Source: a virus. Taken from it: a stretch of 24,576 nt of DNA. Position 1 is the first letter of the stretch. Every line of letters begins with the position of its first letter. Of the stretch, positions 3,292-15,117 are shown piece after piece. Position numbers and translations under genes: made by a program. The DNA lies in IMG/VR virus record IMGVR_UViG_3300044641_000775, positions 1 to 24,576 of that record; one strand, given 5' to 3'. The notes beneath the pieces were generated by a model. It saw only the letters and a list, made by a program, of their open reading frames with translations, ran no database searches and was not told where the DNA came from.

Positions 3292-5319
3292 ATGGCCACG
3301 GCGGCGCTAGAGGTAAATGACCTCGTTTCGATGTTCGAAGCGAGCGAAGACGCCAGCTATGACGCGCGCCTAGAGAGCCAACGCGACCGCGACTACGTCG
3401 ACAACATTCAGCTTACAGCCGAGGAAATCGCCGCATACAAAAAGCGGCGCCAACCGCCAATCGTCGTCAACCGCATCAAGCGCAAGGTCGACTTTCTAAA
3501 AGGCTATGAGCAGGCCCAGCGCGTTCAGCCGCGCGTTCTGCCCAGGACGCCGGCGCACGAACAGGACGCCGAGGGTTGCGAGCAGGCTTTGCGCTACGTC
3601 TCCGACAACCAGCGGTTTGATCATAAGCGTTCGCGCGTTTGGGATAATCTTCTGGTCGAGGGCATGGCCGGCTACCGCGTCGCCATCAAGCAGAACCGCA
3701 AGGGCGAGGTCGATGTCGTTCTCGACGTTGTCCCCTGGGATCGCATGTTCTTTGATCCGCACTCGTCGGCGCCTGATTTCTCCGATGCTGGTTATCTCGG
3801 CGTCGTTAAGTGGATGGATTACGACGAGGCAGTCGCGCAGTATCCGGACGGCGTCGAGGCGCTGGAAAGCACGCTCGCCTCTGTATCAAATAGCGATACA
3901 TTCGACGACAAGCCGAAATATTCGCTCTGGGCTGACAAGAAACGCAAGCGCGTTCGTATCTGCCAGATTTGGGTGAAGAAGCACGACGAGTGGCAATTCG
4001 CCGAGTTCACGAAGGGCGGCATTCTGAAAGCTGGCCGCTCGCCGTATCAGACGGACAGCGGCGAGAGCGATTGTGAGTTGGTTTTCGGCTCTGCATACGT
4101 CAACCGCGAAAACGACCGCTACGGCCTCGTGCGCGAAATGATTGGCCCGCAGGATGAGATTAACAAGCGCCGTTCTAAGGCTCTGCATCTTCTCAATACA
4201 AATCAGGTTGTTGCAGAAGAAGGCGCTGTGCGCGATGTCGAGAAGGCCAGACGCGAAATGGCGCGGCCTGATGGATGGGTGACGATTTCCCCAGGCTACA
4301 CCGACAAGGTGAAGATCGAAACGCGCCTCGACCTGGCGACGGGCCATTTGCAAATGCTGCAAGAGGCCAAGAACGAAATCGACCTTATGGCCGGCAATAT
4401 CGGCTTGCAGGGCGGTCACACGCAGAGCAAAGACGCAGCGAGCGGCAAGGCTATTCTGGCGTCGCAGCAGAGCGCGATGATGGAGGTCGCGCCTCTTATG
4501 GACGCTCTGCGCGATCTGGATTTGCGCGTCTTCCGCGCGGTGTGGAACCGCATCCGGCAGTTCTGGCGTGAACAGAAATGGGTCCGCGTTACCGACGACG
4601 AGAAGAATATTAAGTGGGTTGGCCTAAACGTGGACCCGATGCAAGTGCAAATGCTGGCGATAAATAACCCAGAGGCCGCGCAGAAGGTCGCCGGCTCTGT
4701 CGCCAACCTGGCCGAGATGGACTGCGACATCATCATTGATGATGCGCCGGACGGCATTACCTCGCAAATGGAGCAGTTCCAGGCGCTAGTGTCGTTGAAA
4801 CAGTTCGACGCCAATGGCGAAATCCCCATGAAGGCGCTTATCGCCGCCATGCCGAACCTGCACAACAAAGAACAGGTCATGGCGCAGATGGAAGCTGGAA
4901 AGCAGCCGGAAGACCCGCAGCAGGCGATGTTGCAGCAGACGCAGATCCAGATGGAAATGCAAAACGCGCAGTTCAAGATTCAGGAGCAGGCGGCCAAGGC
5001 CGAGAAGACCGCCGCCGAGGCGCAGAAGGTCAAAGTCGAAACCGCTCTACTGCCGCAAAAGATGATGGCCGACATTTACGCGCCCATTCACGCACAGCAG
5101 ACGCAGACGGACGACAACGAACGCCAGCGCCAGCACGAAGCCGGTATGTCAGAGCGGCAGAGGCAGCATGAAGATTATTCGGGCGAGCGCGACCGTCAGT
5201 CGCAATTCGAACAAAGCGAGCGCGACAAAGAGTTTGCGCGTGAAAATAGCGCCCGCGATCAAGAACACGACGCGCGCATGGCGCAGCAACAAGCGCAGAT
5301 GAGGCAGCCAGCCCGTTAA
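3292..5319 (+). CDS. Portal protein, P22-like
   Basis: 675 residues, close to P22-type portals. The protein should form the dodecameric ring at the capsid vertex through which DNA is packaged and ejected, and which docks terminase and then the neck proteins. Family-like segments include RQPPIVVNRIKRKVDFLKGYE near 53-73, DVVPWDRMFFDPHS at 145-158, and MIGPQDEINKRRSKALHLLN at 283-302. From about residue 540 the chain turns into Gln/Glu/Arg-rich helices (QTQIQMEMQNAQFKIQEQ, then repeated ERQRQHE at 610-626). This matches the alpha-helical barrel that projects into the P22 head and can sense packing density. The start follows the upstream stop by 3 nt with GGAAGG at 3277-3282. A 111-nt gap with an inverted repeat follows. 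Confidence 0.93.
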   Translation: MATAALEVNDLVSMFEASEDASYDARLESQRDRDYVDNIQLTAEEIAAYKKRRQPPIVVNRIKRKVDFLKGYEQAQRVQPRVLPRTPAHEQDAEGCEQALRYVSDNQRFDHKRSRVWDNLLVEGMAGYRVAIKQNRKGEVDVVLDVVPWDRMFFDPHSSAPDFSDAGYLGVVKWMDYDEAVAQYPDGVEALESTLASVSNSDTFDDKPKYSLWADKKRKRVRICQIWVKKHDEWQFAEFTKGGILKAGRSPYQTDSGESDCELVFGSAYVNRENDRYGLVREMIGPQDEINKRRSKALHLLNTNQVVAEEGAVRDVEKARREMARPDGWVTISPGYTDKVKIETRLDLATGHLQMLQEAKNEIDLMAGNIGLQGGHTQSKDAASGKAILASQQSAMMEVAPLMDALRDLDLRVFRAVWNRIRQFWREQKWVRVTDDEKNIKWVGLNVDPMQVQMLAINNPEAAQKVAGSVANLAEMDCDIIIDDAPDGITSQMEQFQALVSLKQFDANGEIPMKALIAAMPNLHNKEQVMAQMEAGKQPEDPQQAMLQQTQIQMEMQNAQFKIQEQAAKAEKTAAEAQKVKVETALLPQKMMADIYAPIHAQQTQTDDNERQRQHEAGMSERQRQHEDYSGERDRQSQFEQSERDKEFARENSARDQEHDARMAQQQAQMRQPAR

Positions 5320-5430: not shown

Positions 5431-6225
5431 ATGAGTGGTCTCGAAGAGATACTCGACGGCGGCAATGCGCCCGCAGTCGAGAAGGAAGAATTGCAACCTG
5501 AAAGTCAGGCGGCCCCGGAACAGCACGAAGAAGGCGAACAGCCGGAAGCGGGCGGCGACGGACAGCCGATGGCCCCTGTAACCGCGCTTACAGCAGAGCG
5601 TCGGAAATACAAGGAAAATCTTGCAGCAGTTGAGCGCAAGCTAGAACAGCAAAACGCCCAGATGCAGCAGTTGCAGCAGATCATGCTTGCCCAACGGCAG
5701 GCGGAACTGACGGCGACACAGCAAAAGCAAGAGCCAGAACCGGATTTTTGGGAAGACCCGGCGGGGTTTGTCCAGAGACGTGAAGAGCGGTTGCGCCAGG
5801 AGTTCGCCAAGCAGCGAATTGCCGAGCGTGACCAACAGTCGCGCTACATGGCCGAACAGGCGCACGGGAAAGAGGTTGTCGCAGAGGCGCTTAACGCCAT
5901 CGGCGGTTTGCAGAAGCAAAACCCGCAGGCGGCTAACGCACTTTTGCAGCATTTCAACAATTCTCCGCATCCCTACGGGACGATGCTCGAATGGCATCAG
6001 CGGGCGCGGGCGATGGCCGAAATCGGCACAGACCCGAACGCTTACCGCGAAAAACTCAAAGCCGAGTTGATGGCCGAATTGCAACAGCAGCAACCGTCGC
6101 AGGGCCAAGGTCAGGCGATGGATAACATGCCGAGCAATTTCATAGGCGGTCGAAACGTCGGCGCTCGCAGCGGCCCCGAATACGGCGGGCCGCAATCCCT
6201 CACGGACATCTTCGGCCGCCGGTAA
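5431..6225 (+). CDS. Capsid scaffolding protein
   Basis: 264 residues, acidic, Gln/Glu-rich and lacking an obvious enzyme fold, placed between portal and coat gene exactly where tailed phages encode the internal scaffold. A disordered acidic N-terminus (1-50) is followed by a coiled coil at about 53-95 (AERRKYKENLAAVERKLEQ). Then come an EPDFWEDPAGFVQRREERL segment at 101-121, a helical middle with the NPQAANALLQHF and WHQRARAMAEIG motifs, a Gln-rich stretch, and a conserved-looking tail SLTDIFGRR that could bind coat protein. The scaffold should drive prohead assembly and then leave or be degraded; no protease gene is visible. The AGGAAAAG ribosome site sits just before ATG 5431. Its stop codon lies in the loop of a terminator hairpin. 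Confidence 0.85.
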   Translation: MSGLEEILDGGNAPAVEKEELQPESQAAPEQHEEGEQPEAGGDGQPMAPVTALTAERRKYKENLAAVERKLEQQNAQMQQLQQIMLAQRQAELTATQQKQEPEPDFWEDPAGFVQRREERLRQEFAKQRIAERDQQSRYMAEQAHGKEVVAEALNAIGGLQKQNPQAANALLQHFNNSPHPYGTMLEWHQRARAMAEIGTDPNAYREKLKAELMAELQQQQPSQGQGQAMDNMPSNFIGGRNVGARSGPEYGGPQSLTDIFGRR

Positions 6226-6238
6226 GGCGGCCTTTTTA
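6214..6238 (+). terminator. Intrinsic terminator between scaffold and capsid genes
   Basis: A perfect 7-bp stem GGCCGCC (6214-6220) and GGCGGCC (6226-6232) encloses the loop GGTAA, followed at once by TTTTT at 6233-6237. The loop contains the scaffold stop codon (TAA 6223-6225), so terminating ribosomes would cover the hairpin. Only about 15 nt remain before the capsid start, too little for a new promoter. The signal may be leaky or may set an mRNA end. Confidence 0.85.
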
Positions 6239-6253
6239 TTAGGAGCCTGAACA

Positions 6254-7381
6254 ATGGCTTTCCCTGAAACCCAGAATAGCCGCGCTGTAAAGGGGCTTAC
6301 GCCTACACAGTGGGATGACGACTTCTTCCGCGAATACCTCACCGAGAACCGTTTCTCGGAGAGCATGGGTACGAACGAAACCTCGATCATTCAGGTTCGT
6401 GAAGACCTGTCGAAGAAGAAGGGCGACCGTCTTGTGTTCGCTCTGGTCAACCGTCTGAAAAAGGCGGCCGTGACCGGCTCGAACGTGATGATGGGCAACG
6501 AGGAAGACCTCTATTCCCGTTCGCACTACATCCTGGTCGACAAATACCGTAACGCCGTGCGCGTCCCGGAAATTGAAGAGCAGTATTCGGCCATCGGCCT
6601 GCGTGACGCGGCTCGCGCCGTGTTGCAGGACTGGTCGAAGAAGCACACGGAAGAGTTCATCATCAAGTCGATTTCTTCGATTAATGGTGTTCAGATCACC
6701 GCCGCTTCGGGTGCGGCCTCAACCGAATGGATGACCAACAATGCTGACCGCATCCTGTTTGGCGCTGCTCGCTCTAACGCTTCGTCCAATGTCCTCGCGA
6801 CTGCGGCCGGCACTCTCGACACGACGAACGACCTTCTGACGGCTCGCGCCGTTAGCAACATGAAGCGCATCGCTGAAACGGTTGCTGACCCGCTTATCCG
6901 CCCGATCCGTTCTGTCGCGAACAAGGGCCGCCGCTATTACATCCTCTACGCTCACCCGGCCGCCTTCAATGATTTGAAGAACGACCCGGCGATTGTCGAG
7001 GCGCAGCGCGAAACCATTCAGACGATGGAAAACGAGCGCCTGTTTGAAGGCGGCGACCTCCTTTGGGATGGCGTCATCATTAAGCAGATTGAGCAGGCGA
7101 ATAGCATTTGGAATTTCGGCAAGGTTGGCGCTGCTGGCGCGAACGTGGCCGGCGCGTTCCTGTGCGGCGCCCAGGCTCTTGGCGTTGCTTATGCTCGCCG
7201 CTGGAAGACGACCACGGAAGACTTCGACTACGGCGACAAGAAGGGCGTCGAGGTTTCGTCTATCTATGGCGTTGACAAGCTGGTTTTCGGTTCGGACGCG
7301 ATTGCTTCCGACCGCGACGACCGCAAGAAGCTGAAAGACAACGGCATGGTGTCGGGCTTCTTCGCCACGACCGAGTTCTAA
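6254..7381 (+). CDS. Major capsid protein, N4-gp56 (DUF4043) family
   Basis: 375 residues, typical for this HK97-fold coat family. It forms the icosahedral shell. Features match the family: an N-terminal arm with TQWDDDFFREYLTENRFSE (18-36), then IIQVREDLSKKKGDRLVFAL (45-64), an E-loop-like segment with VTGSNVMMGNEEDLYSRSHYI (73-93), DAARAVLQDW near 118-127, and the YYILYAHPAAFNDLKNDP core motif near 228-245. The C-terminus continues with GALFLCGAQAL-like residues and the VDKLVFGSDAI segment. The start has an ideal AGGAG (6241-6245) eight nt upstream. The gene is flanked by two intrinsic terminators, so its mRNA level is probably set separately from its neighbours. Confidence 0.92.
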   Translation: MAFPETQNSRAVKGLTPTQWDDDFFREYLTENRFSESMGTNETSIIQVREDLSKKKGDRLVFALVNRLKKAAVTGSNVMMGNEEDLYSRSHYILVDKYRNAVRVPEIEEQYSAIGLRDAARAVLQDWSKKHTEEFIIKSISSINGVQITAASGAASTEWMTNNADRILFGAARSNASSNVLATAAGTLDTTNDLLTARAVSNMKRIAETVADPLIRPIRSVANKGRRYYILYAHPAAFNDLKNDPAIVEAQRETIQTMENERLFEGGDLLWDGVIIKQIEQANSIWNFGKVGAAGANVAGAFLCGAQALGVAYARRWKTTTEDFDYGDKKGVEVSSIYGVDKLVFGSDAIASDRDDRKKLKDNGMVSGFFATTEF

Positions 7382-7633: not shown

Positions 7634-7987
7634 ATGAAGACGGCCAACGAGGTCTATGCGAAGGCGTTGAGTTTCCTGGGCGCTTATGGCGCGGGGCAGA
7701 CTCCGTCGGCGGAAGACATGGCCGTGGCAGACGCCGCCTTTCGCCCGCTAATGGACGAACTGGCGTCGTTGCAGCTTTGCTTCATTCCCTATGACCCTGA
7801 CGAGAACGATGTCCCGTGTGTGCAGGACGAGTTCTTTGTCACCATCGCCAAAATCCTGGCGAATGAGATTGCGCCGGAGTTCGGACAGCCGAGCGACGAG
7901 GGCGGCCGGCAGATATTAGAGCGCCGCCTGCGGTTGCTCACCTCGACCGGATCTTATGGCCAGGTTCAACAGGCTGAATATTTCTAA
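7634..7987 (+). CDS. Head-completion / neck protein, P22 gp4-like
   Basis: 117 residues, almost all helical, with KTANEVYAKALSFLGAYGAGQTPS at the N-terminus and the FRPLMDELASLQLCFIPYD core, then EFFVTIAKILANEIAPEFGQPSDEG and a basic helix RQILERRLRLLT. This matches the general layout of gp4-type packaged-DNA stabilisation proteins (about 120-170 residues). These bind the underside of the portal after packaging and create the docking site for gp10. The AAAAAGG purine run precedes ATG 7634. Its TAA overlaps the ATG of the gp10-like gene, as expected for partners made in equal amounts. Identity rests on fold pattern, length and position rather than a signature motif. Confidence 0.68.
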   Translation: MKTANEVYAKALSFLGAYGAGQTPSAEDMAVADAAFRPLMDELASLQLCFIPYDPDENDVPCVQDEFFVTIAKILANEIAPEFGQPSDEGGRQILERRLRLLTSTGSYGQVQQAEYF

Positions 7988-9393
7988 TGGCGGCCGTTGA
8001 AATACCTTTCCCGAAATCCTCGCAGCCAGGCCAAGAGGCCGGCGAGGGCTACGGCAGACTGCTTAACGCTTGGTGCGACGTTGACGCCGGGACGCTGACA
8101 TGGCGCCCGGTTCCCGGCTCCAAGATGTTCGTCGAACTGGAAAAGGACACGCATCGCGGCATGATTGTCGTCGATGGCGTTCTCCGCACCTTGCAGGACG
8201 ACCGTTTCTACAACGTCACCCGCACCGGCTCGATTGACCGGGTTATCGGCAGCATTGGCGGCGACGGCCCGATTACGTTGGCGCAGAACAACGCCAAGCC
8301 GATCAGGGGTATTGTCGGGGTTTCGACGGCTGGCGCGTTCTCAGTCACGGCCACGGCGGTCTTTGACCTCGACACAAGCAACCTGCCGGCACCCAACAGC
8401 GTTTGCTCGCTAGACGGATATTTTCTTTATACCTGCGCCGACGGCCGGGTATTTGCGTCTGACCTGAACACGCCGAACATTAACGCGCTTTCCTTCACGG
8501 CGGCGAATGCCGACCCCGATGGCCTTGTTCGCGGCACGTCGCATGGCGGGCAGTTCTTCGCCTGGGGCCAGACCTCGACCGAGGTTTACCAGAACGTCGG
8601 AACGCAGCCGTTCCCGCTTCAACGGGTGACGGTCATTCCTGTTGGCTTGATTGGCCCCTGGGCGATTGCCGGCTTTGAAGAGGGCTTCAACGGCGACCAG
8701 GTATTTGTCGCATCCGACGGCACTGTGCGCCGGATGAACGGCTATGACCCTGTGCGCGTCTCAACCCGCGATGTCGAGCGGGCGATTAATTCGGTCAAGG
8801 TAAAATCGCAGATACAGGCCACGGCCTATGTCTTCGACGGCAATCAGATTATCTCGTTTTCCGTACCCGGCGGAACATGGGAATACAACCTCCGCACCGG
8901 CTTCTGGCATGAGCGCCGGACGCAAGAGCAAAAGCGGTGGTTTGGCTGCAATGCTGTGCTGTTTAACGAGCGTTGGGTTGTCGCCCGCTACGACAACAGC
9001 CACCTCGTTTATATCGACAGCCGAGAATACAAGGACGATTTGACCGACATTTCGATGTTGGTTGAAAGCGCGCCATTGAAAGATTTTCCGATGCGTTCGG
9101 TCGTGTCGGCCGCGTTCTTTGACTGGACGGTCGGGCAGGGGTCACTCTCTGGCGAGATTATCCAGGTCGAGCCGACGGTCGCCATCTCCTGGTCGCGCGA
9201 TGGCGGCGAAATATTCGGCAACGAAATTCTCTGCCGGCTCGGCACGGAAGGCGAATATTCGAAAACTGTTCGGGTCAACCGCCTCGGCATGGCGAGCCAG
9301 CACGGTATGCGGATTCGCTTGATGACCAGTTCGCCGGTTCACCGCGTCCTGCGCGGCGGCAAGGTTGAGTTTACAGCGAGAGGGCCGGCCTAA
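7987..9393 (+). CDS. Packaged DNA stabilisation / tail hub protein, P22 gp10-like
   Basis: 468 residues, close to the 472 of P22 gp10. The N-terminus has IPFPKSSQPGQEAGEGYGRLLNAW, typical of this family, where a Q-or-R-rich start leads into the first blade. The rest is beta-rich with blade-like units such as VCSLDGYFLYTCADGRVFASDL, GGQFFAWGQTSTEVYQNVG and DGTVRRMNGYDPVRVSTRDVE, then WEYNLRTGFWHERRT, which suggests a beta-propeller. The C-terminal segment (about 350-468) is a separate beta domain including ISWSRDGGEIF and RLGMASQHGMRIRLM. In P22 this protein seals the neck with gp4 and carries the tailspikes and needle; here it is the likely attachment point for ejection-channel and fiber proteins. 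It overlaps the next small gene by one base. Confidence 0.85.
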   Translation: MAAVEIPFPKSSQPGQEAGEGYGRLLNAWCDVDAGTLTWRPVPGSKMFVELEKDTHRGMIVVDGVLRTLQDDRFYNVTRTGSIDRVIGSIGGDGPITLAQNNAKPIRGIVGVSTAGAFSVTATAVFDLDTSNLPAPNSVCSLDGYFLYTCADGRVFASDLNTPNINALSFTAANADPDGLVRGTSHGGQFFAWGQTSTEVYQNVGTQPFPLQRVTVIPVGLIGPWAIAGFEEGFNGDQVFVASDGTVRRMNGYDPVRVSTRDVERAINSVKVKSQIQATAYVFDGNQIISFSVPGGTWEYNLRTGFWHERRTQEQKRWFGCNAVLFNERWVVARYDNSHLVYIDSREYKDDLTDISMLVESAPLKDFPMRSVVSAAFFDWTVGQGSLSGEIIQVEPTVAISWSRDGGEIFGNEILCRLGTEGEYSKTVRVNRLGMASQHGMRIRLMTSSPVHRVLRGGKVEFTARGPA

Positions 9394-9542
9394 TGCCTCT
9401 CAATCAAAACCCTCCACCGCCGCCGCCACCGAATGTCGCCCGCGTTGACGCGCAGGGCAGGCCGACAAAGGCTGTCGTGGAATACGAAACGGCGCTGACT
9501 GAATACCTGAAACTGCTGTCAGCAGCGGTTCGAAAGGCTTAA
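9393..9542 (+). CDS. Short proline-rich protein at the needle-gene position
   Basis: A 49-residue frame starts at the ATG that overlaps the gp10-like stop (TAATG) and ends 3 nt before the next gene. It begins MPLNQN followed by seven consecutive prolines, then NVARVDAQGRPTKAVVEYETAL and a C-terminal amphipathic helix TEYLKLLSAAVRKA. Exact tiling between its neighbours, absence of other sequence, and typical codon choice support it as real despite its size. I know no homologue. In P22 the genes between gp10 and the ejection proteins encode the needle and a small assembly protein. This gene occupies the same position, and a short adaptor or plug role is possible but only inferred. Confidence 0.72.
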   Translation: MPLNQNPPPPPPPNVARVDAQGRPTKAVVEYETALTEYLKLLSAAVRKA

Positions 9543-9545
9543 CGC

Positions 9546-11255
9546 ATGTCGAATGACGCAATCTTTTATTTGATGGCGATGCAGCAAATGCAGCAAGCCA
9601 CGGATAAGGCGAATGCGCGCCTGGACAAGTCCGAAGGCAAGTCGCAGGGCGTTCTCGACAAGGGTTACAACACCTCCGTTGACTCGCTCGCCAAATACCT
9701 TGGCATGTCTACGGACTCGCTGTTGAACGGCGTCAAGGAAGCCAGCGGCTATTATAAGGACGCGCTTAACCAGTCTGGCGAAGCTATCAATACGGGTTTC
9801 GACAACGCCTTTAATTATTTGAACAAGGGAACGAGCGAGGCGGCCGGGTCGCTGAATTTTGGCGCCGACACGGCTCTGAATGAATTGCAGTCGGGTTTCG
9901 CCGGCGCGAAAGACAGCCTTGGCATTGGCTACAATACGGCGACGGACTATCTCAAAAACGGCCTCGCCACATCGTCTAGCGCCATTGATAGCGCCTCGGC
10001 CGAGGCATTAAAGGCGCTTGGCGGTAGTCGGGACAGTTCAATCGCCGCGCTGCAATCTGGCTACGGCGACACGCTCAATTTCCTTGACCAAGGGCTCGCG
10101 TCGTCAACCGGCGCCTTGCAGAGCAATTACGATGTCGCCCGCAATGACCTGACATCGGGTTACAACACGGCGCGCGGCGACCTCGAAAAAGGCATCGCCG
10201 GTTATCAGAACTGGTATGACCAGGGCGTCAACGCCTCAAACATGGTCAACAACGCGCTCGGCCTGAATGGCGCCGGCGGCAACACAGACGCGCGGTCGGC
10301 TTTCCAGGCTGGCCCCGGTTATCAGTGGATGCTCGAACAGGGAACCGACGCGCTCGCCCGCAAGGCGAATGCGATGGGGATGCTGACGAGCGGCAACACC
10401 GCGCAGGCTGTACAGAAATACGGCTCCGACCTGGCCAACCAGGAATGGGGAAGCTGGCTGAACAATGTGAAGGGCGTTTCGGCGCAGGGTCAGGCGGCGG
10501 CCGATAGCATGATGGCCGGCCGGACGGCGCAGGCTAATCTCGCCAACCAATACGGCCAGAACACCGCGAGCCTTGCGACCGACCTCGGCAAAGGTCTGGC
10601 GGGCCTTTACGACACCGACGCCGGACGCAGGGCGCAGGCCGCCACGGGCCTGTCAACGAACATCTCGAATGTTTATGGCCAGTATGGTCAGAACAGCGCC
10701 AATGTTCTCACGAACAAGGGCAATCAGCTTGCCGACCTGAACAAGACGTTTTCGCTCTCCGGCTCGCAGCTTGCATCCGACTACGGCGGCAATCTCGCCA
10801 ACCTTTACACCGGCCTCGGCACGAACCGCGCCAATATCCAGAGCAATCTCGGAAACAACCTTGCGGCGCTATACGGCGAGCAGGGCAAGGCGCAGGCGAA
10901 CCTTGCATCGACCAAGGGCGCGAACCTCGCCAACCTTTACACTGATTATGGTTCGTCAATGGCCGACCTGAAAACCGGCCTCGGCTCCGGCCTTGCCGGG
11001 ATCTATCAAGCGCACGGCGGCAACCTCGCCGGTCTTGCGACGGGTTACGGTCAGGATCAGGCGAGCCTCTATACGACTATCGCCAGCGGCCAGGCGCAGA
11101 ACGACATGTTCGCCGGAAAATACATGGCCGATGCGTGGATGGGTTACGGCAAGCAACGTGCAGCCCAGGAAGACGCCGGCAAAAACCGCAAGCAAGCGAT
11201 GATTGGCGGCCTGATTAACGCCGGCTCCGGCCTGCTTGGCGGCCTCTTTAAGTAG
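9546..11255 (+). CDS. Putative DNA ejection protein with two arrays of 11-residue repeats
   Basis: 569 residues with three parts. Residues 21-229 form 19 gap-free units of exactly 11 residues, typical unit TALNELQSGFA, with Leu at position 6 and Gly at 9. Residues about 245-310 form a non-repeat centre with PGYQWMLEQGTDALARKANA and GMLTSGN, a segment common in phage internal and DNA-transfer proteins. Residues 327-546 form 20 further 11-residue units, typical GNLANLYTGLG, with hydrophobic positions 3, 6 and 10. The end is a small glycine-rich hydrophobic tail (GGLINAGSGLLGGLFK) that could insert in a membrane. Position after the neck genes, like P22 gp7, suggests an ejected protein helping DNA cross the envelope. 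The role is inferred; repeat structure is directly visible. Confidence 0.8.
   Translation: MSNDAIFYLMAMQQMQQATDKANARLDKSEGKSQGVLDKGYNTSVDSLAKYLGMSTDSLLNGVKEASGYYKDALNQSGEAINTGFDNAFNYLNKGTSEAAGSLNFGADTALNELQSGFAGAKDSLGIGYNTATDYLKNGLATSSSAIDSASAEALKALGGSRDSSIAALQSGYGDTLNFLDQGLASSTGALQSNYDVARNDLTSGYNTARGDLEKGIAGYQNWYDQGVNASNMVNNALGLNGAGGNTDARSAFQAGPGYQWMLEQGTDALARKANAMGMLTSGNTAQAVQKYGSDLANQEWGSWLNNVKGVSAQGQAAADSMMAGRTAQANLANQYGQNTASLATDLGKGLAGLYDTDAGRRAQAATGLSTNISNVYGQYGQNSANVLTNKGNQLADLNKTFSLSGSQLASDYGGNLANLYTGLGTNRANIQSNLGNNLAALYGEQGKAQANLASTKGANLANLYTDYGSSMADLKTGLGSGLAGIYQAHGGNLAGLATGYGQDQASLYTTIASGQAQNDMFAGKYMADAWMGYGKQRAAQEDAGKNRKQAMIGGLINAGSGLLGGLFK
9606..10232 (+). repeat. Protein-level hendecad array 1 (19 x 33 bp)
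   Basis: This DNA encodes residues 21-229 of the first ejection protein. Every successive 11 residues align without any gap, for example EAAGSLNFGAD, TALNELQSGFA and GAKDSLGIGYN. Leu, Ile or Tyr is favoured at position 6, Gly at 9 and an aromatic at 10. Nucleotide copies have diverged, so this is an old protein repeat under selection for phase, not a recent tandem duplication. Confidence 0.9.
10524..11183 (+). repeat. Protein-level hendecad array 2 (20 x 33 bp)
   Basis: This DNA encodes residues 327-546 of the same protein. Twenty successive 11-residue units, such as TNRANIQSNLG, NNLAALYGEQG and KAQANLASTKG, keep phase without insertion or deletion. Hydrophobic residues sit at 3, 6 and 10 (spacing 3-4-4), Ala is common at 4 and Gly at 11. 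The consensus differs from array 1 in register and residue choice, and the two may be separate expansions. Confidence 0.9.
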
Positions 11256-11263
11256 GAACAGAT

Positions 11264-13117
11264 ATGGCCCTGCAACTCGGACAGTATCAGCTTCCCGGCG
11301 CTATATCGGCGGAATTGGTCAAGCCATTCCTCGACTATAAGACCGACGGCGCAATGGCGATGGCCAACGCGCTCGGCAATGCAGGCAACAATCTTGGCAA
11401 CGCCGTCGGCGGCATGATGGCGCGCAACCGCGAGGAAGAGAAAGCGCAAAGCCTGGCCGGTCTTGGCGGTATGCTTTCAAATGGCGATTTTGCTGGCGCG
11501 GCGAATGCAGCGGCGCAGGCAGGAAATCCCGAACTCGCGATGAAACTCGGCCTGGCCGGGTATGAGCATAAGCAGCAGTCCGATAGCCTCGCGGCATTGG
11601 GCGGCATGCTTGGCGACAGCGGCGGCGGCGGGCTTGGTTTCGGTGGCGCGGCGGGCTCTACGCCTCCTGGCGGCAACGCTTCCTATGCTTACAAGAAATT
11701 GCAGGAAATGGGCTATTCGCCCGTCGCTGCGGCCGGCATTGTCGGCAACCTTGTGCAAGAGAGCGGTGTGCGTCCTGTCGGCGCTTCTGGCGACGGCGGC
11801 ACGGCTCACGGCCTCGCGCAATGGCGCGGCGACCGCTGGACAGGCTTGCAGAATTTCGCCCGTCAGAACGGCCTCGACCCGAACAGTATGGACGCGCAGC
11901 TTGGCTGGCTCGACCGTGAATTGAAGACGGGCTATCGCGGCGCCTATGACCGGATTATGGGCGCGAAGAATCCGGCGGAAGCAGCCGGCGCGTTCGGCCT
12001 TCTATATGAACGCCCGAAAGGCGCCGAAACCGGCGTCGCCGCCAATATTGACGGCTACGGCAACCGCGTTCGTCAGGCGATGGCGTTGTTTGGCTCTGGC
12101 TCGGCGCATGAAGCTGGCCCGCAGGCTCCGGATCCGACAATGGCCGGCGCTGGCGCGGCTCCTATGGGCGCGCAGGCGAACAGCGGCGAGGTCAATGGCC
12201 TCATGAAGCAATGGGATCAGATTAACCGCGCGATGATGTCGCCTGCGTTCGCCAATGCCGGGGAGGCGGGCCAGAATGCGCTGAAACAGCGCGCGGAAAT
12301 GATTAAGACCCGCCTGGGTATGCTTGGCAAAACGGAAGGCTTGCCGGCTGATTACCGCGAATATCAGCTTGCGAGCAGCGACCCGAACTTTGCAAAATAT
12401 ATGCAGGACAAGCGCGGCGCTTCGGCGCAGGGCGAAGGCGCCAAGATTACCGAGGTCGCCAACGCGCGCCGCCAGCTTATCATCGACCAGGGCGGCAATC
12501 CTGACGACCCGCAGAGCAAGCAGTTTATTCTTTCCGGCAAGTTCCCGCGCGAAGATCAGACGCCTCTAACTGCTACGGATAAGAAAGCCATTCTGGAAGC
12601 TGATGATTCCGTCGCTTCCACGCAGTCCTACATCAAGGCGCTGCAAGAGGCGCAGAAGCTATCGCATAGCGCAATGGGCTTTCCTGGCGCGGGCGCGGTG
12701 GCGAAGGTGGGCTCGGTTCTCGGAAACCAGACCTCGATCAATACGTCTGAACTCGACGCCCTGGTCACGCAGAACGCGCTCAATCAGCTTAAATCAACCT
12801 TTGGCGCTGCGCCGACCGAAGGTGAACGCCAGATTCTTATGCAGATGCAGGGAGGCGCAAGCCTTCCCGACGCTGTTCGCCAGCGCATGTATGGCCGCGC
12901 GCTAGAGTTCGCGCAGGAGCGCCTGACGAAAAACCAGGCCCGCGCCGACGAATTGCGTGGCGGTGAATTTTACAAAACCGGCGGCGGCAACTCGACAAAG
13001 CCGGCAGGACAGCCGCAGGGCCAGTCGCAGGCTCACCCGATGGAAGGCCGCACGGCGACCAACCCGCAGACCGGCGAGCGCATGATTTTCCGTAACGGGA
13101 ATTGGGCGAAATACTAA
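11264..13117 (+). CDS. Putative ejection protein with tail-lysozyme domain
   Basis: 617 residues. The N-terminal 135 are Ala/Gly-rich, with short repeated helices (LAGLGGML at 64-71, LAALGGML at 109-116) and a glycine linker. Residues about 138-280 match a phage tail lysozyme (Phage_lysozyme2 type): YAYKKLQEMGYSPVAAAGIV, then GNLVQESG with a probable catalytic Glu166, AHGLAQWRGDRWTGLQNFAR and GAFGLLYERPKG. It should cut peptidoglycan locally during DNA entry. The C-terminal half (about 310-580) is a helical domain with LTATDKKAILEADDSVAS and INTSELDALVTQNALNQLKSTFGAAPTEGERQ, often seen in internal virion proteins. The end MIFRNGNWAKY resembles a short capping motif. AGGA at 11254-11257 precedes ATG 11264. 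It overlaps the next gene as TAATG. Confidence 0.85.
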   Translation: MALQLGQYQLPGAISAELVKPFLDYKTDGAMAMANALGNAGNNLGNAVGGMMARNREEEKAQSLAGLGGMLSNGDFAGAANAAAQAGNPELAMKLGLAGYEHKQQSDSLAALGGMLGDSGGGGLGFGGAAGSTPPGGNASYAYKKLQEMGYSPVAAAGIVGNLVQESGVRPVGASGDGGTAHGLAQWRGDRWTGLQNFARQNGLDPNSMDAQLGWLDRELKTGYRGAYDRIMGAKNPAEAAGAFGLLYERPKGAETGVAANIDGYGNRVRQAMALFGSGSAHEAGPQAPDPTMAGAGAAPMGAQANSGEVNGLMKQWDQINRAMMSPAFANAGEAGQNALKQRAEMIKTRLGMLGKTEGLPADYREYQLASSDPNFAKYMQDKRGASAQGEGAKITEVANARRQLIIDQGGNPDDPQSKQFILSGKFPREDQTPLTATDKKAILEADDSVASTQSYIKALQEAQKLSHSAMGFPGAGAVAKVGSVLGNQTSINTSELDALVTQNALNQLKSTFGAAPTEGERQILMQMQGGASLPDAVRQRMYGRALEFAQERLTKNQARADELRGGEFYKTGGGNSTKPAGQPQGQSQAHPMEGRTATNPQTGERMIFRNGNWAKY

Positions 13118-15117
13118 TGAACCTACCGCCCGGCTTCGTCCTAGACGATGAACCAAAAAAACAGCCCGCCGAGCATGGTCTGCCGGCGGGTTTTGTTTTG
13201 GATGAACACCCAGACGCGAAGGCGCAGGCGCCAGAACCGCAGGCCGAGCAGCCGTCGCCCTACGCAGGGGCTCTAGGCGGCGTTCTCGCGGGCCTGGATA
13301 GCGCCGGCAACACGCTGGCCTTCAATGTGCCTCGGAACCTCGCGGCGGGCCTGCGCAGCCTTAAAAACGGCTCCAGCTTCGACCAGGAATACGACTATCT
13401 GAAAAAGGTCGGTGAAGAAGCGGCTGCGGCTCACCCGGTAATTTCCGGCCTCGGCACGGCGGCTGGCGCGCTTGGCTCTCTCGCGGTCATGCCGGAAGCG
13501 GCGCCGACGATGATGGGCCGCGCGGCGCAGGCGGCTAAGTGGGGCGCGGGCATGGCCGGCGCTTCCGAATTGGCCGACAGCAAAGACCTCGGCAAAGCGG
13601 TGACGGCTGCGGCCATTGGCGGCGTCCTGGGCGGCGCTGCTGGCCCGGTTGTCGAAGGCGCGGCGCAAGTTGTGGGCAAGGTCGCGCAGCCGGTCATGGG
13701 TTATGCGCGCGGCGCGATCAATGCCGACGACGAGGCGGCCCGTCGCGTTGCGGCGGCCATTGCGCGCGATCAGGAAATCGGCGGCGCCGGCTTCACGCCT
13801 GACCAACTGCGCGGCGCGCTGGACAAGAATAATCCTGCGATCCTTGGCGACATGGGCGGCGAGACGACGCGCGCCCTGGCCAGAGACGCGGCGAACACAT
13901 CGCCGGAAGGCCGGTTCGCACTCAACGAGGCAATCAGCCCGCGTTACGATACGCAGGCCGAGCGCCTGGCGCAGACCGCCGACGAAATGTCGTCTGGCGT
14001 CTCAAACTTTGAAAAGCGCCAGCAGCTAGAGGCGCTGGCCAGAGAACAGAATAACGCGAATTATGGTCGCTTCCGCGCCATGACGCAGGGCGGCGTATGG
14101 ACGCCGGATCTAGAGCAGGCCACGGCCTCGCCGGCAGTTCAGGACGCCATTCGCAAGACGCTGGAAACGTCCCGCGAGGCGGCGGTCGCGCGCGGTCAGA
14201 AGGTTGCGGAGTCGCCGTTCGTACGCGGCGCCGACGGAACCTACACCATCGCCCGCCGCGCTGACGGAACCGAGATTAAGCCGACCGGCGAATTTTGGGA
14301 TCATGTTCAGCGCAACATGAGTTCGGCGGCGAACAAGGCCGCCAGCTATGGCGAGGGCGACAAGTTCGGCGCCGGCCTTATCAATGAGACGCGAAAGAAG
14401 ATAACCGGCCACCTGGACGAACTCACGACCGTCAACGGCGAGAGCGTCTACAACACGGCCCGCACTGGCGCGGCGAAAGCATTCGGCGCTGGCGACGCGA
14501 TTGAGGCCGGAGAAAAATATTTCTCACACAAAGGCACGGCGCAGGAACTCTCTAACGCGGTCGGCAAATTCAAGGGCGCCGAAAAGGAACTCTTTCACGA
14601 CAGCGTGGCGCAGGCGGTGGCGAAGAAACTGCGCGTCGATGTCGCAGACCGGCAGAACGCCATCAATGCGCTGTTCAAGAATGAAGAGGGCCGGAAGAAG
14701 CTGCTAATCGGCCTGGGCTCGAAAGAGCGCATGGATAAGCTGGAAGCCCAATTGCACATCGAGCGGGTCATGGACGCCATGCGGCCGGCGGTGCAGGGCA
14801 ATTCGACGACGGCTCGCCAGCTTGCGGAAATGGGCCTTGCCGGCGGCATTGGCGGCAGCGGCTACGTCACCGGCAGCGACACGGCCACGATGGGCGGAAT
14901 TGGATTATTCGCCGCCAGTCTCGCCAAACACAGGATCGACGCGAACCTTGCGCGGAAGGTTGGCGAACTCATCGCATCTCGCGACCCGGCCAACATCGCC
15001 AAGGTCGAAAAGATGCTGGTCAAGAATCCGCGCATGATGGACGCATTTCGTAAAGTCGAACCGCAGGGCGGCGCTATCGTCGGCCGTGGCCTTGGCGACG
15101 CTCTAGGGGGCAATTAA
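13117..15117 (+). CDS. Third putative ejection protein with duplicated LPxGFVLD motif
   Basis: 666 residues from ATG 13117, which overlaps the previous TAA; an in-frame TTG at 13102 is less likely. It opens with NLPPGFVLDDEP and repeats GLPAGFVLDEHP at 21-32, a motif seen at the N-terminus of many phage internal proteins. A Gly/Ala-rich, mildly hydrophobic helical region follows at about 45-190 (AAIGGVLGGAAGPVVEGAAQVV), suited to membrane contact. The middle (200-540) is long helices with DPL-free, charged sequence such as RRVAAAIARDQEIGG and FALNEAISPRYDTQAERLAQ. A second glycine-rich patch (MGLAGGIGGSGYVTGSD) lies near 570-590. Position and pattern fit a P22 gp20/gp16-type ejection protein. 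A terminator-like hairpin sits inside its first 30 codons. Confidence 0.78.
   Translation: MNLPPGFVLDDEPKKQPAEHGLPAGFVLDEHPDAKAQAPEPQAEQPSPYAGALGGVLAGLDSAGNTLAFNVPRNLAAGLRSLKNGSSFDQEYDYLKKVGEEAAAAHPVISGLGTAAGALGSLAVMPEAAPTMMGRAAQAAKWGAGMAGASELADSKDLGKAVTAAAIGGVLGGAAGPVVEGAAQVVGKVAQPVMGYARGAINADDEAARRVAAAIARDQEIGGAGFTPDQLRGALDKNNPAILGDMGGETTRALARDAANTSPEGRFALNEAISPRYDTQAERLAQTADEMSSGVSNFEKRQQLEALAREQNNANYGRFRAMTQGGVWTPDLEQATASPAVQDAIRKTLETSREAAVARGQKVAESPFVRGADGTYTIARRADGTEIKPTGEFWDHVQRNMSSAANKAASYGEGDKFGAGLINETRKKITGHLDELTTVNGESVYNTARTGAAKAFGAGDAIEAGEKYFSHKGTAQELSNAVGKFKGAEKELFHDSVAQAVAKKLRVDVADRQNAINALFKNEEGRKKLLIGLGSKERMDKLEAQLHIERVMDAMRPAVQGNSTTARQLAEMGLAGGIGGSGYVTGSDTATMGGIGLFAASLAKHRIDANLARKVGELIASRDPANIAKVEKMLVKNPRMMDAFRKVEPQGGAIVGRGLGDALGGN
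13165..13199 (+). terminator. Terminator-like hairpin inside the start of the third ejection gene
   Basis: A perfect stem CCCGCCG (13165-13171) and CGGCGGG (13184-13190) extends inward by GCA/TGC after a bulged A, with loop TGGTC. TTTTGTTTT follows at 13191-13199, and AAAAAAA precedes the stem, so it could act on both strands. It lies 48 nt after the start codon in sequence that is clearly coding. Either it ends a fraction of transcripts or active translation masks it. Confidence 0.6.

Follow-up and report, generated by a model that had tools for sequence, protein, structure and literature searches.

The 24.6-kb virus fragment analysed here (the window) has the gene order of a P22-type phage, and one of its ejection genes encodes a protein that carries two long arrays of 11-residue units (hendecads). 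What kind of ejection protein is this, what fold do such arrays take, and what might their length serve?

The ejection gene and its neighbours

The genes of the window run from terminase, portal and scaffold through the major head protein and the Hc3/gp10 gene to a 49-aa ORF, the ejection gene, a tail-lysozyme protein, a third large protein and the tail fibre/spike genes (Table 1). The scaffold gene (5431-6225) is a probable assignment, made by position. No tail tube gene was recognised in the window, where the neighbours are P22-type portal, Hc3, ejection and tail fibre/spike genes. The C-terminal part of the lysozyme-bearing product is 52% identical in Pam5_12 of Pseudanabaena phage Pam5, the nearest cultured relative found, and a BLAST search of the third large protein for similarity to P22 gp16 or Pam5_13 found none. 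An excess of identity at a lag of 11 residues is absent from both of these ejection-type proteins. The ejection gene itself is present at equal length on two other metagenomic contigs, with 0 and 6 base differences.

Table 1. Coordinates of the ejection gene, its parts and the adjacent genes in the window
Feature	Position	Strand	Basis
Hc3 / P22 gp10-type head closure gene, upstream of ejection gene	7987..9393	+	phrog_578, E 4e-68
Ejection protein gene	9546..11255	+	ATG ORF, 569 aa, P22 gp7 / PHROG 598 type
N-terminal leader, residues 1-20, ahead of array 1	9546..9605	+	sequence; phase scan weak there
Array 1 (N arm), 19 hendecads, residues 21-229	9606..10232	+	lag identity, phase scan, moment, PSSM
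Core, conserved, residues 230-326 (HMM match 230-310)	10233..10523	+	core HMM; AF2
Array 2 (C arm), 20 hendecads, residues 327-546	10524..11183	+	lag identity, phase scan, moment, PSSM
C-terminal tail, hydrophobic and glycine-rich (NRKQAMIGGLINAGSGLLGGLFK)	11184..11252	+	sequence
Second ejection-type gene, phage tail lysozyme domain	11264..13117	+	PF18013, 99.6 bits
Third ejection-type gene, at P22 gene 16 position	13102..15117	+	position only; phrog_5880

Three other features of the neighbourhood deserve mention. The 49-aa ORF (9393-9542, +) is proline-rich and overlaps the Hc3 stop codon, and a similar 48-aa ORF lies at the equivalent place in Pam5. The last 70 codons of the portal gene (3292-5319, +) encode a long charged tail in which Glu, Arg and Gln abound and ERQRQHE-like words recur. 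A 249-aa ATG ORF antisense to the probable scaffold gene (5641-6390, -) is probably spurious.

An enlarged member of the P22 gp7 family

Residues 230-385 of the window protein match phrog_598 (E 4e-8), the same profile that P22 gp7 matches with 320 bits and the nearest relative, L065, with E 2e-12. The core scores 112 bits against a core HMM, a model trained with the window's own family. These matches support the view that the protein is an ejection protein, as the preliminary description had called it, and more precisely an enlarged one of P22 gp7 / PHROG 598 type.

Homologous loci were gathered mainly via the portal and Hc3 genes rather than via the repeats, and therefore the family sample was not picked for periodicity. 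With the core HMM, 88 ORFs were recovered from the fetched loci, and about 60 of these are distinct. With close relatives still in the sets, lag-11 identity exceeded a z of 2 in 40 of 67 C-terminal arms and 34 of 69 N-terminal arms. Long forms occur outside the window phage as well, since BFVD contains family members of 503 and 571 aa. Scanning twice more for relatives with long arms returned just short-armed ones or truncated contigs, and one scan of genome contigs, for hosts, found no relative.

Six homologues (L005, L121, L129, L131, L132 and L138) carry an S74-type intramolecular chaperone domain, with an S-D-x-R-x-K motif, after the C arm; in L121, L129 and L131 the call is a motif cut alone. 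Such a domain is unusual for an internal ejection protein, and BFVD relatives carry a like annotation.

Two gap-free arrays of 11-residue units

The self-identity of the window protein peaks solely at lags of 11, 22, 33 and 44 residues (z 6-12; best other lag 3.2). Period-11 column information reaches 277 bits in array 1, compared with 135 +- 10 after shuffling (z 14), and 303 bits in array 2, compared with 128 +- 10 (z 17). A sliding phase scan holds a single phase across residues 1-220 and another single phase across 309-546, and because one phase persists through each array we regard the arrays as gap-free. The earlier division into 19 and 20 uninterrupted units, which is exact over the two arrays, is thereby confirmed.

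The consensus of each array can also be sharpened. In array 1, position 6 is hydrophobic in every one of the 19 units, and the preferences previously described for Leu at 6 (15 of 19) and Gly at 9 (13 of 19) hold; position 2 favours Ala or Ser. The aromatic preference described at position 10 does not hold as such, since that position is hydrophobic in 14 units but aromatic in only seven. In array 2, the hydrophobic positions 3, 6 and 10 (10, 16 and 13 of 20, with Leu at 6 and Tyr or Leu at 10) and Gly at 11 (15 of 20) were rightly identified, but the strongest position of all, Ala at 4 in 18 of 20 units, had been missed. Gly and Ala together make up about 26-31% of the arrays, glycine 13-15%, and the net charge is -8 for array 1 and 0 for array 2.

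Recent DNA duplication was ruled out as the cause of this regularity: TRF finds only one 9-base repeat, and the units share about 40% identity at the DNA level. The absence of a tandem repeat in the DNA indicates that the period is kept at the protein level and has not been freshly copied. In array 2, lag 44 gives more identity (z 12.3) than lag 11 does (z 7.6), which hints at an older four-unit duplication; a 44-residue block has been described in some tape measure proteins (PMC3271669).

Helical period of the arrays

In both arrays the hydrophobic moment is at its maximum at 98.2 degrees per residue, equivalent to three turns per 11 residues, and is nearly nil at 100 and 102.9 degrees. The 3/11 harmonic (0.33 in array 1, 0.25 in array 2) is stronger than every other harmonic of 11, including the beta-like 5/11 (0.18 and 0.15). 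The same peak, at 98.5 degrees in both arms, is obtained from 56-57 homologues with the window protein left out. At the level of sequence, then, the arrays show the period of straight amphipathic helices. A stripe of small residues adjoins the hydrophobic stripe (positions 2, 5 and 9 in array 1; 4, 8 and 11 in array 2), and this arrangement would suit tight helix-helix packing and may be the reason why Gly and Ala are so abundant.

AlphaFold2 predicts an all-helical window protein, with pLDDT of 73-94 over residues 171-370 and about 81-94 over residues 221-330, the core region; pLDDT falls below 50 at residues 467-516 of array 2, and pTM is 0.33 (0.33-0.36 across the models), a moderate level of confidence overall. 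The long amphipathic helices proposed in the preliminary description agree with both the moment and the models.

That description had also offered a repeated solenoid as the alternative. A beta-solenoid is rejected by the harmonic analysis together with the all-helical models. In a broader form, the arrays could be a glycine-rich repeated solenoid or a flexible low-complexity spacer with no helical order, an idea to which the Gly and Ala content and the low pLDDT at residues 467-516 lend some weight. We consider it very unlikely, given that the 3/11 moment tops 5/11 and all other harmonics, that its peak recurs in the homologues, and that the models of the window protein and of L065 are both helical.

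Register and unit number across the family

Relative to the core, the N arm lies in phase 10 in 18 and in phase 3 in 12 of the 39 scored, and the C arm in phase 8 in 21 and in phase 4 in 18 of 47. The units of L065, Pam5, L014, L128 and L067 line up with those of the window protein. A PSSM built from homologues only chooses the window's register in array 1 with 116 bits (next best 6) and in array 2 with 143 bits (next best -46). The family's sequences show arrays flanking one conserved core, in a register that is largely fixed to that core. Both arms are shifted by four residues relative to the core in another register class (N phase 3, C phase 8), which includes L118, L116, L122, L115, L134, L133 and others.

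Free insertions inside the arrays of homologues, which had been named beforehand as evidence that would speak against a strict repeat, were looked for and not seen in the main groups. Because register falls into few classes, length must change mostly in whole units. By register, most homologues have about 4+5 units and several have 6-10 per arm; the window protein, with 18+20 by register count and 19+20 by division, has the highest number in the set.

Arms that lengthen together

If the two arms pair with one another, they must grow together. Across 54 sequences, C-arm length equals 0.96 times N-arm length plus 39 (slope 0.96 +- 0.09, rho 0.76), and the intercept fits the C-terminal tail. Independent contrasts on the core tree, from which L139 and L135 were also omitted, give r 0.84 and a slope of 1.04. 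This fit treats apart the S74-type tails, the over-long start of L067 and five non-periodic N-terminal extensions; raw arm lengths give a rho of 0.41. As these exclusions were chosen after a first look at the data, the unfiltered register counts of units (rho 0.51, p 4e-5, n=59) are the more cautious figure. The five extensions (L006, L051, L058, L059 and L143) have N regions of 125-232 aa ahead of the core, in which an 11-residue period is slight or absent, and are outliers to the arm rule.

The model of L065 has the same layout as that of the window protein, with helices at residues 3-106 and 170-317 around three short core helices. VIA structural matches over residues 103-400 of the window protein are the antiparallel hairpins of a chemoreceptor, SMC and RipA; because Z values of 8-10 are common for any long helices, these matches describe the model and prove no kinship. 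Foldseek against the PDB gave no significant fold match (E over 0.06). A PDB sequence search with the window protein (E up to 1) and with a six-member family profile likewise returned no match, so that no structure of P22 gp7 type was found.

Co-variation and models together support a single long helical hairpin in which the arms run antiparallel as its two limbs and the core forms short helices at the predicted tip. The co-variation further supports a scheme in which both limbs gain or lose whole 11-residue units together in the course of evolution.

Comparison with known systems

P22 gp7 resembles the window protein in its core domain, its position after gp10, its hydrophobic Gly-rich C-terminus (a type of tail also present in many homologues) and its arm-core-arm layout, which by the core HMM match comprises about 62 + 83 + 84 residues. 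It also has a 20-aa leader, cleaved according to the annotation of the P22 record, where the window protein has a 20-aa stretch before array 1. However, P22 gp7 has 229 aa, compared with 569 aa and 19+20 hendecads here, and genes 26 and 14, which in P22 separate the ejection gene from gp10, are absent from that place in the window. Pam5 stands closer. Its portal and Hc3 proteins are 61% and 46% identical to those of the window, and its gene order is the same (gp10-type, ejection protein, lysozyme protein, third protein), as it broadly is in P22. Syntenic with the window gene is Pam5 gp11, a hypothetical protein of 307 aa not annotated as an ejection protein, which has hendecad arrays on both sides of the core in the window's register, with about 6-8 units per arm.

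Among other ejection systems, T7 gp14 leaves the virion early and then folds as two antiparallel helices, and six copies of this hairpin extend the tail channel in the outer membrane (PMC11784390); the protein has 196 aa, and a hairpin in the window protein is predicted from co-variation and models. In phiX174 H, hendecads occur in an alpha-helical DNA-conducting tube (PMC7354561, Table 1). That protein has three hendecads, a transition and eleven heptads and forms a decamer, whereas the window arrays have 19 and 20 hendecads, and the PDB search (E up to 1) gave no sequence match between it and the window protein or the six-member profile. Tape measure proteins contain variable numbers of 11-residue repeats that change by whole units (PMC3271669). 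The unit number of the window family is also variable (about 4+5 to 19+20), but its module is of the P22 short-tail type, and its arrays sit on either side of a core and vary in length symmetrically. In the cytoplasmic hairpins of chemoreceptors, heptads are inserted or deleted symmetrically as the length changes (PMC5907407); these hairpins too are antiparallel with a conserved tip and symmetric whole-repeat changes, although their unit is 7 rather than 11 and they are unrelated in protein and function.

These comparisons temper the initial impression that so regular a hendecad design was without precedent. Hendecads in phiX174 H (PMC7354561) and variable 11-residue repeats in tape measure proteins (PMC3271669) were already known, and most homologues in the protein's own family have shorter hendecad arrays. 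Searches of the open-access literature found neither hendecads nor symmetric arm growth described for proteins of P22 gp7 type.

Proposed role in DNA entry

In P22, potassium release and DNA entry depend on each of gp7, gp16 and gp20, and one proposal makes gp7 the virion-proximal part of the conduit (PMC10883804); a review groups T7 gp14 with P22 gp7 (PMC8954989). Because of the precedents of P22 gp7, T7 gp14 and phiX174 H, we consider the most likely role of the arms to be as the helical wall of a tube by which the short tail is extended, and by this analogy the lining of a channel or tube by hendecad arms is plausible. We propose, with a probability of about 60% for the explanation as a whole, that the window protein is an enlarged P22 gp7-type protein whose hendecad hairpin helps to build the DNA entry tube. 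On this view, the arms were extended from the modal 4+5 units to 19+20. The protein would be packaged in the head and leave early via the portal and tail in an extended form. The hairpins would then join side by side via two stripes, Leu/Tyr and Ala/Gly, and the resulting helical tube would carry the short tail onward across the outer membrane into the periplasm, while the Gly-rich hydrophobic C-terminus may seat in a membrane and the lysozyme-bearing neighbour may clear peptidoglycan. At 0.15 nm per residue each arm, if fully helical, would reach about 31-33 nm, compared with 7-8 nm in a 4+5 member. Several points count against a hairpin tube, among them the low pTM, the poor pLDDT at residues 467-516 and the weaker co-variation of raw arm lengths; in addition, an 11-residue sequence period was sought in P22 gp7 and not found, and a glycine content of 13-15% is high for a stable isolated helix.

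The arms might instead be amphipathic helices like those of apolipoproteins or synuclein, resting flat against a membrane, either the outer one at its inner leaflet or the inner one, and stabilising a pore without forming a tube wall. The 11-residue amphipathic period with its straight stripe would suit such helices, and there is a Pfam match to Apolipoprotein (PF01442, A1/A4/E), but at 14.5 bits (E 0.03) it is weak and far under the curated cut-off of 90, and this sub-threshold match is all that became of the apolipoprotein link drawn in the preliminary description. We judge this alternative improbable, as the Ala/Gly stripe beside the hydrophobic stripe favours helix-helix packing, the 1:1 co-variation points to pairing of the arms, and neither array has a positive net charge. 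About equally doubtful, in our estimate, is that the arms serve inside the virion, as a helical bundle that surrounds the portal barrel or lies within the head's ejection core, their length being a matter of packing and not of a trans-envelope tube. Before ejection, the helices of T7 gp14 do wrap the portal barrel and form a bridge to gp15 (PMC11784390), and ejection proteins must refold on exit in any case; yet a packing role does not readily account for both arms having lengthened two- to four-fold. Both states, in the virion and after ejection, may use the arms.

A bolder version of the entry-tube hypothesis holds that oligomers of the window protein alone form a helical tube of about 30 nm across the whole envelope, and that the number of hendecads, symmetric in both arms, is tuned to the envelope thickness of the host. 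We regard this as possible but tentative, somewhat ahead of the two alternatives just discussed; if true, it would provide an analogue of the tape measure in short-tailed phages.

Implications

Paired growth of the arms by 11-residue units leads to a direct, testable model of the fold, the antiparallel hendecad hairpin, and the strict periodicity makes regular, modular units available to work on helical pores. With members running from about 4+5 to 19+20 units, the family is a natural series of lengths. Should tube length be set by arm length, conduits in cryo-tomography ought to have lengths predictable from unit number, and how short-tailed phages bridge envelopes of differing thickness would become a matter of measurement.
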